This document shows, in pieces, positions 45,347 to 47,980 of a DNA stretch of 64,000 nt (position 1 is its first letter; each line of letters opens with the position of its first letter). The notes under the pieces were generated by a model. That model saw only the letters and a program-made list of their open reading frames with translations, ran no database searches and was not told the DNA's origin. Origin of the DNA: Candidatus Bathyarchaeota archaeon. Its GTDB lineage: Archaea; Thermoproteota; Bathyarchaeia; Bathyarchaeales; WUQV01. A program made the translations under genes and the position numbers. The stretch is taken from positions 1 through 64,000 of the forward strand of contig JAGGVF010000022.1 of assembly GCA_021158125.1 (NCBI GenBank), written 5' to 3'.

Positions 45347-45503
45347 TGTCGACAACTGTCGGATAAGACGGAGAGAGCAAGCAAAATGTAGTCATATTCA
45401 TTGTATAATTCTCTCTGTTTATCCTTTTTAATTTCGTCAGTATCCTACACTTAGTTGTCGGGTAATGTCGGCATATTTTATGCGTCTCCGACAAGCTTTT
45501 ATA
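45347..45503. promoter_or_regulatory. Promoter region with repeated TGTCGG/CCGACA sites before HTH-Fae-HPS
   Basis: The region contains TGTCGACA (45347-45354), TGTCGG at 45357-45362, 45456-45461 and 45466-45471, and inverted CCGACA at 45488-45493. The last site directly precedes TTTTATA (45497-45503), the likely TATA box, which would start transcription near 45525. Two of the sites are ten bases apart, one helical turn. This looks like an operator array for a DNA-binding protein, possibly the HTH domain encoded by the next gene. Confidence 0.6.
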
Positions 45504-45553
45504 GGAGTTCCTTTTATCTGATTATTTCGGTGCGAAGCTTGACTGTTTCAGTA

Positions 45554-46984
45554 ATGAAGCCTAAGTCAAGAGATGAACTTGTTGAATTGTTAAAGGCAGC
45601 TATGAAACGGGAGATGAGTCTCCGTAAGGCTAAGGGATTAGCTGTGAAGCCAACTATTTCTGGGACAGCTAAAATTTTGGGTATTCACCGTGACACACTT
45701 TATGAATGGATGAAAGAGTATAATGTTAACTTTGAGGAGATTGCACGGGAAATAATTTCTCCAGCTAAAATCTTGGAGGAACCGGAAAAGCATGTTTATT
45801 TAATTGGAGAGGCTCTTCTCGGCTCTGGAAATGAAGTTGCCCATGTAGATTTATTGATAGGTGATAAAGACGGCCCTGTCGGCGAGGCTTTTGCGCATAG
45901 TCTTTCAAGTATGTCGGCTGGCCATACGCCTTTACTTGCAGTTATTAGGCCTAACCTTCCACCTAAGCCTCATACAGTTATAGTTCCGAAGGTTACGATT
46001 AGAAATATGGATGATGCAAACAAGATTTTTGGACCTGCGCAGGCTGCTGTTGCAAAGGCTGTTGCCGACGCTGTTGAGGAGGGAATAATTCCTAAGGACA
46101 AAGTTGACGATTGGGTTGTAATTTGCAGCGTTTTCATTCATCCAGACGCAAAGGATTACAGGCGCATCTACCACTTTAACTATGGGGCAACCAAGCTGGC
46201 TTTGAAAAGAGCCCTAGCTAAGTATCCTCCGCTGGAAAAGATTATGTATGATAAGGACAGAGCAAAACATCCAATAATGGGATTTCAAGTGCCGCGGCTT
46301 TGGCGACCGCCATACTTGCAGATAGCCCTTGACATTCCAAGCCTAGAAAGGACAAAGAAGATTATTCAGCAAATACCGAAAAGCGACCGCATAATACTGG
46401 AAGTTGGAACTCCTCTTCTGAAGCGGTACGGGACAAAGGTTATTCGGGAACTTAGAGAAGTTGCCAAAGACATGTTTATCATCGCCGACTTGAAAACTTT
46501 GGATGTTGGAAAAGTTGAAGTAGACATAGCCTATGAGGAAACCGCCGACGCCGTTGTTGCCGCAGGCCTCGCAGACATCCCGACCCTTAACAACTTCATA
46601 TACGAAGCCAAAAGACTTGGAATCTACGCCTTCATAGACCTCATGTACGTTGACAACCCAGTTGAGAAACTTAAGCAGCTAAAGGACTTTCCAGACGTAA
46701 TAATAATTCACCGTGCAATAGATGTTGAAACAGGCAGAACCTTAGGTTTAGACCTAATTCCGAAACTTAGGAAAGAATTTAAGGATAAAAAATTCTTGGT
46801 TGCTGTTGCAGGCGGAATAATACCTGAAACTGCAAGAGAAGCCTTAGAAAAAGGTGCCGACATAATCATTGTTGGAAGATACATAACCCAGTCGAAAGAC
46901 ATTGAAAGAGCAGTTAGAGAATTCCTAAAAATAACACGAGAAATGCGAGAAGACATAGATCTCTACAGAGTCCATGTGGAGTAA
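45554..46984 (+). CDS. fae-hps: HTH-Fae-HPS fusion: formaldehyde-activating enzyme with hexulose-6-phosphate synthase
   Basis: Residues 1-78 form an extension with a Fis-type helix-turn-helix ([20 protein letters not shown]). Residues about 79-245 are Fae, which condenses formaldehyde with a pterin carrier: [32 protein letters not shown] (shown by its ends) and the catalytic His in AHVDLL. Residues about 260-470 are [39 protein letters not shown] and IIVGRYIT. In archaea the HPS direction usually releases formaldehyde and makes ribulose 5-phosphate. ATG 45554 is conservative; GTG 45530 is near the predicted transcription start. PRPP synthetase follows. Confidence 0.93.
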
Positions 46985-47095: not shown

Positions 47096-47980
47096 ATGAT
47101 AATAGTTCCCGGGCCTTCTTCGGCTAGTCTTGGAAGAAAAATGGCTGAAATATTGGAAGCTAAACTTGTTCCAGTTGCTTTCAAAAAATTTCCAGATGGT
47201 GAATCTTATCTTAGATTCGAAGGGGAAGTTGCGGGGGAAGAAGTTGTTGTTGTTCAGAGTACGGGTCCACCGCAGGATACGAGTCTCGTTCAGCTTTTAA
47301 TTTTGATAGATGCCGCCAAAGATTTGGGAGCAAAGCGTGTGACTGCTGTTGTTCCCTACTTGGCCTATGCAAGGCAAGATAAACGTTTCTTGCCGGGAGA
47401 AGCCATAAGTATACAAACTGTTGGAAAACTTTTGAAGGCTGCTGGCGTAGATGAACTGCTAACGGTAAACGTCCACGAAGAAAAAGTCTTAAAAAATTTT
47501 GGTTTTCCAGCTGAAAGCGTTTCTGCAATGAGTTTGCTGGCTGAATACTTTAAGTCAAAGGGTTTTCAAGGCGCTTTTTCTCTTGCCCCAGACCGTGGCG
47601 CAGTTCAACTTGCCGTAGAAGCCGCCGGAGTCTTAGGTGGAGAGTATGGATGGCTTGAAAAGAAGCGGGATCTCTACACGGGTGAAGCGAAGACTGAAGA
47701 GAAAATCCTTAACGTTTCTGGAAAGGACGTCATAATCTTTGATGATATCATAAGTACTGGCGGAACAGTTGCTAATGCCGTTAAAATTTTAAAGAAGCAG
47801 GGTGCAAGAAGGGTTTTTGCCGCTTGTGCTCATCCGTTAATGATTGGAAATGCAAAGGAAAAAATTTTGCAAAGCGGAGCAGAAGGCATAGTTGGAACGG
47901 ACTCTGTTCCAAGCGATGTGACAGTTGTTTCACTTGCCCCATTGCTCGCCAAGGTTTTAGCCGAGAAATTTAAGGGATAA
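47096..47980 (+). CDS. prs: Ribose-phosphate pyrophosphokinase (PRPP synthetase)
   Basis: The enzyme makes PRPP from ribose 5-phosphate and ATP. GPSSASLGRKMAEIL, KKFPDGESYLR, VPYLAYARQDKRF, the nucleotide-binding NVHEEKVLKNFG and the PRPP-binding loop VIIFDDIISTGGTVANA are visible. Its 294 residues are the archaeal class length. It sits 111 bases after Fae-HPS, in line with ribulose 5-phosphate supply for PRPP, and three bases before the THUMP methyltransferase. Confidence 0.95.
   Translation: MIIVPGPSSASLGRKMAEILEAKLVPVAFKKFPDGESYLRFEGEVAGEEVVVVQSTGPPQDTSLVQLLILIDAAKDLGAKRVTAVVPYLAYARQDKRFLPGEAISIQTVGKLLKAAGVDELLTVNVHEEKVLKNFGFPAESVSAMSLLAEYFKSKGFQGAFSLAPDRGAVQLAVEAAGVLGGEYGWLEKKRDLYTGEAKTEEKILNVSGKDVIIFDDIISTGGTVANAVKILKKQGARRVFAACAHPLMIGNAKEKILQSGAEGIVGTDSVPSDVTVVSLAPLLAKVLAEKFKG

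Follow-up and report, generated by a model that had tools for sequence, protein, structure and literature searches.

The question that this locus raises is why an archaeal enzyme that is tied to the supply of ribulose 5-phosphate and the capture of formaldehyde (PMC5241800) should begin with what looks like a DNA-binding domain. The window, meaning the whole 64,000-nucleotide stretch of Bathyarchaeia DNA that was analysed, holds an open frame at 45455-46984 (+) that gives a protein of 476 aa when read from the ATG at 45554. A first-pass annotation had described this protein as a Fis-type helix-turn-helix (HTH) domain fused to the N-terminus of Fae-HPS, with a possible role as a metabolite-controlled self-regulator. 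The fusion itself is borne out, with both enzyme domains intact in Pfam and NF009833 searches, and the gene is composed of the following features.

45530..45556, + strand: alternative start codons GTG 45530, TTG 45539 and ATG 45554 (in-frame sequence; starts of relatives)
45554..45790, + strand: N-terminal HTH domain and linker, residues 1-79 counted from ATG 45554 (Pfam HTH_28/HTH_8, 78-member scan, AlphaFold2, conservation)
45656..45718, + strand: helix-turn-helix proper, residues 35-55, with putative recognition helix 46-55 (AlphaFold2 helices 35-42 and 46-55; invariant residues)
45803..46279, + strand: Fae domain (formaldehyde-activating enzyme), residues 84-242 (PF08714, E 2e-71; PDB 1y5y, 1.2e-41)
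46310..46924, + strand: HPS domain (3-hexulose-6-phosphate synthase), residues 253-457, ADLKTLD motif kept (PF00215, HPS/OMPdecase, 1.4e-31; NF009833)

Judged by its sequence, the protein from residue 82 onward is an ordinary archaeal Fae-HPS. Residues 82-475 match positions 2-390 of the 392 in the NF009833 equivalog model with 576 bits, a full-length match over the curated cut-off of 274 bits. The catalytic motifs are kept, including ADLKTLD and H97, one of the invariant alignment columns, and both Fae and HPS activity are predicted from them. PHI is also encoded in the genome (182 bits). Downstream of the gene, at 47096-47980, lies a frame that by eye resembles ribose-phosphate pyrophosphokinase (prs), which fits a role in ribose phosphate supply; prs was not found beside Fae-HPS in the 37 other loci among the 38 inspected, with flanks of 1.5-4 kb or less. 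The same genome has a second Fae of 492 aa (L002:1486-2964, minus strand; G000:C4 ~70187), in which Fae lies behind a domain that by eye is DapA-like (dihydrodipicolinate synthase family), and similarly long frames at Fae matches recur throughout the order.

The extension of about 80 residues has the features of an HTH domain. Profile searches against the Pfam HTH families, as the first-pass annotation had proposed, returned matches at E values of about 1e-5 to 1e-4, namely HTH_28 (2.7e-5, 24.6 bits, slightly below the cut-off of 25) and HTH_8/Fis (PF02954; 8.9e-5, 22.6 bits, above the cut-off of 22). In structure modelling, AlphaFold2 places helices at residues 6-26, 35-42, 46-55 and 60-68; block-mean pLDDT over residues 1-70 is 82-92 when the domain is modelled alone and 75-95 when the whole protein is, and confidence in the extension is good as far as about residue 68. 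P33, T34, A39, H45, R46, D47, T48, W52 and F60 are invariant in 78 homologues, and the alignment has no conserved cysteine within the domain. The label "Fis-type" is only loosely right and fair for the turn alone. When the 78 homologues were scanned at E<=0.001, HTH_28, HTH_29 and HTH_23 matched 48, 41 and 28 members and HTH_8 only 4, so that by sequence the family is a generic homeodomain-like one (HTH_28/29/23) and not specifically that of Fis. Fis ranked first in Foldseek, but with E 0.5; neither Foldseek nor sequence searches against the PDB gave a significant match for the extension.

The extension is kept across one order of Bathyarchaeia. A search of 151 genomes gave matches in 129, and in about 100 the fusion is present from residue 2 onward. 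Where a record with a full-length relative bears a name, it is Ca. Bathyarchaeota, and the CSMAG_1134 relative is 72 % identical across residues 2-476. Entropy is 0.73 bits in the HTH core (consensus GTAKxLxIHRDTLYxWxKEFxVxF) and 0.74 in HPS, compared with 3.0 in the linker. Because some 100 genomes carry the extension and its HTH core is as conserved as HPS, the extension is a translated and selected protein, not a product of chance. A translation start directly at Fae is thus rejected on protein conservation, and a chance HTH look-alike is rejected on conservation across the order together with the structure prediction. The exact start codon in the window is uncertain and may be 45530, 45539 or 45554; in most relatives, the start lies 6-7 codons ahead of the conserved KP. 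A profile of the HTH domain run over 61 genomes found it on Fae-HPS, once per genome, and essentially nowhere else, the exceptions being a degraded paralogue in G025 and a very weak 36-residue match in G035. The extension is absent from ordinary Fae-HPS: the 392-residue NF009833 model has no N-terminal DNA-binding domain, and the Fae-HPS genes read outside the class have no recognisable DNA-binding extension. In one genome of the window's own family (G002; L191 and L199), the HTH frame stops at a TAG and HPS without Fae lies on another contig, which reflects a gene that is broken or split, or else an error of assembly.

If the domain binds DNA, its target may be sought in the gene's own promoter, where a short motif recurs.

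45357..45362, + strand: putative operator site TGTCGG, with a near-site, TGTCGA, ahead of it at 45347 (sequence)
45456..45461, + strand: putative operator site TGTCGG (sequence)
45466..45471, + strand: putative operator site TGTCGG, 10 bp from the 45456 site (sequence)
45488..45493, - strand: putative core operator CCGACA (TGTCGG on the - strand) in the BRE position, 3 nt before the TATA box and 22 bp from the 45466 site (sequence, comparison)
45497..45503, + strand: TATA box TTTTATA (sequence; same position in most relatives)

These four full sites compare with about 0.03 expected there at the shuffled window-wide rate. Aligned upstream regions of the relatives share TCCGACA just before TATA, ATGTCGG over the start codon and more TGTCGG upstream; the start-codon site is absent in the window and likewise in its closest relative, G001. 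Over 81 distinct upstream regions of 200 bp, 235 TGTCGG/CCGACA sites were observed against 5.1 expected, and CCGACA plus TATA was present in 77 of them. A larger promoter set has CCGACA-TATA in 87/90 and TGTCGG at the start codon in 82/90. The strict TCCGACA-TATA pattern, TCCGACANNYTTWWATA, occurs at 96 places in 95 of 151 genomes, and at 90 of these places the first conserved codon of an HTH-Fae-HPS gene follows 67-76 bp downstream; five of the remaining six precede partial copies of this gene at the ends of contigs, precede a masked-interrupted copy or lie at a scaffold gap, and one is inside an unrelated CDS. The HTH gene of one genome (G032, L091) has degenerate sites only. A wider regulon that uses the site-TATA arrangement was considered and rejected, as the other strict matches in the window's genome fall inside CDSs (L101, L102, L235). 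The site-TATA arrangement was not found at the PHI locus or the DapA-Fae locus, and the latter (L002) has no TGTCGG.

The pairing of domain and motif can be examined where the domain has been lost. Two genomes (G033 and G148) have deleted the HTH between the start peptide and Fae and kept no other Fae-HPS copy, and their promoters read CCGGCA and ATGTCAGG or ATGACAGG. Two others (G025, L086; G076, L087) have two Fae-HPS genes, a normal HTH copy with sites and a copy with the HTH degraded or missing and without sites. TGTCGG/CCGACA sites are present in 91/91 promoters of HTH genes, 0/4 of HTH-lost genes, 2/16 of genes with no extension and 1/15 of genes with the ribbon-helix-helix (RHH) extension described below; for the extension-less genes this is about chance level (2/16 regions, with 0.75 sites expected). 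The four lost or degraded copies form one clade (support 100/96), so their joint loss of HTH and sites amounts to one or two events.

In families f25-f27 of the same class, the Fae-HPS extension is instead an RHH domain. At E<=0.1, 16 of 16 extensions match ParD_antitoxin and 12 of 16 match RHH_1 (best 8.3e-6), the RHH profile matches ParD 3kxe at 8.5e-5, and four members scanned singly fall under the Pfam cut-offs. A different motif, GTGWCAC, is found in 15/15 RHH-Fae-HPS promoter regions and 0/111 others, and the full pattern of this operator plus TATA is present in 13 of 257 genomes, a single time in each, and was absent from the reversed control. In the tree, the HTH has a single origin with later loss and the RHH genes form one clade (100/98); the row without extension inside the HTH clade (L084) is masked sequence. 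From these sequences, it is most likely that Fae-HPS acquired DNA-binding modules at least twice, with matching operators. A third type of extension was seen in one genome of the class (G211, f18; L175), matching Sigma70_ECF at 1e-4 with a region-4-like HTH.

The spacing of the sites is also regular. Distances between neighbouring sites cluster near 22, 31-32, 42-43, 53, 63-64 and 84-85 bp, which are approximately whole helical turns. For a period of 10.5 bp, the vector strength is 0.76 when the fixed TATA/start pair is left out (n=104) and 0.60 when each of the 34 distinct spacings is counted once, the latter being the safer figure because of the shared ancestry of related genomes. Bacterial Fae is a homopentamer, and PDB 1y5y and 1y60 hold ten chains across the two entries. 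Sites in both orientations on the same face would suit an oligomer with several HTH heads.

Taken together, these observations suggest that the HTH-bearing Fae-HPS is very probably a trigger enzyme that binds TGTCGG sites in its own promoter and probably represses its own transcription. Four properties of the motif support autoregulation: it is almost confined to this promoter, its copies keep to the helical repeat, genes that have lost the HTH do not have it, and genes with another DNA-binding domain have another motif in its place. The self-regulator proposed in the first-pass annotation therefore gains strong support from genome comparison, in which the HTH, the motif, their near one-per-genome pairing, the phasing, the joint absence and the module swap all appear. 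With respect to the trigger-enzyme definition, the complete enzyme and the DNA-binding domain are both present, and the operator in its own promoter is predicted by comparative genomics. We infer DNA binding, repression rather than activation, bridging by an oligomer and metabolite control. In this mechanism, the HTH would bind one TGTCGG site against TATA at the TFB recognition position and others upstream, with a further site over the start codon in most relatives and all sites on about one helix face. An enzyme oligomer with several HTH heads could bridge the phased sites and, bound at the BRE/TATA edge and the start, would hinder TBP, TFB or RNA polymerase such that assembly or escape is blocked. 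Ligands of the Fae or HPS sites may alter the fit to DNA, so that enzyme level would track the demand for ribulose 5-phosphate or formaldehyde capture. PutA and other trigger enzymes offer an analogy that makes such metabolite control plausible, as does the link of the archaeal enzyme to the supply of ribulose 5-phosphate and the capture of formaldehyde.

Other explanations account for parts of this evidence. The fused enzyme might bind the sites as an activator of its own gene, for instance by bringing TFB or TBP to the BRE position. Archaeal activators can sit upstream of TATA/BRE as these sites do, one abutting the upstream side of TATA and others lying farther upstream, yet the start-codon site in 82/90 promoters better fits a roadblock or looping repression, and activation is unlikely. 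It is more doubtful still that a separate formaldehyde or pentose regulator binds the sites while the HTH serves in nucleoid tethering, subunit assembly or partner binding. HTH folds do sometimes mediate protein contacts; however, such a regulator would persist in genomes that keep an HTH copy, and the HTH-lost paralogues there are without the motif. The restriction of the motif to one promoter per genome and the pairing of a second DNA-binding fold on the same enzyme with a second motif also argue against it. That the extension is an evolutionary passenger without DNA-binding function is very improbable: the HTH can be lost, as in the two genomes that keep only an HTH-deleted copy, but its core matches HPS in conservation whereas the linker diverges, which strongly disfavours this explanation, and different DNA-binding domains were added in separate lineages. 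Finally, the core-promoter position of TCCGACA-TATA might suggest a general promoter element of the order unrelated to the HTH, an idea refuted by the genome scans, in which it occurs about once per genome and, except for one CDS-internal match, at HTH-Fae-HPS.

Negative autoregulation by the fused enzyme may be one case of a broader pattern, to which we assign about even chances. Fae-HPS would have become a metabolite-gated, DNA-binding self-regulator more than once in Bathyarchaeia through different modules (homeodomain-like HTH, RHH and perhaps sigma-region-4-like HTH), with each lineage having its own operator at the same promoter position, an oligomer bridging phased half-sites and the enzyme itself acting as the formaldehyde/pentose sensor. 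The presence of two unrelated DNA-binding folds on one enzyme, in separate lineages and with their own operators, suggests repeated selection for coupling the formaldehyde/ribulose-phosphate state directly to transcription, and gives formaldehyde-responsive genetic switches a starting point. Well-studied self-regulating enzymes are few, and the present one is a central C1/pentose enzyme of widespread uncultured archaea. With the operator and its one target both predicted, and with loss and swap available as natural controls, a single protein and a single promoter fragment suffice for testing the mechanism.

Among known systems, the methanogen Fae-HPS (NF009833; Mhun1628 of Methanospirillum hungatei) shares the catalytic part but is without an N-terminal DNA-binding domain in the 392-residue model; there, HPS is reversible, and the formaldehyde that it releases is believed to be taken up by Fae (PMC5241800). 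HxlR and FrmR also control formaldehyde or RuMP genes at the level of transcription but, in contrast, are stand-alone regulators that sense via cysteine cross-links (PMC8879981). Such sensing is unlikely in the HTH domain, given its lack of a conserved cysteine, and would need other parts of the protein. Five trigger enzymes are listed for E. coli, among them BirA and NadR, which likewise join an enzyme to a DNA-binding domain but are multi-target regulators (PMC8249747), whereas HTH-Fae-HPS has a single predicted target. PutA of E. coli and relatives carries an N-terminal RHH and binds its own promoter region, with few or no other targets (PMC8249747). It thus shares the plan of a metabolic enzyme with an N-terminal DNA-binding domain, and the RHH-Fae-HPS of f25-f27 follows the same plan. 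PutA is a different enzyme, however, and the promoter here is archaeal, with an HTH in place of the RHH in the window's order; DNA binding and substrate switching are proven for PutA and predicted for HTH-Fae-HPS. The main text of a survey of archaeal fusions mentions Fae/Hps and neither helix-turn-helix nor ribbon-helix-helix (PMC11237513), and no HTH- or RHH-bearing Fae-HPS was found reported in the open-access literature that was searched. The trigger enzyme as a kind is known, while the HTH-Fae-HPS form of it, the operator and the parallel swap of modules appear to be new.
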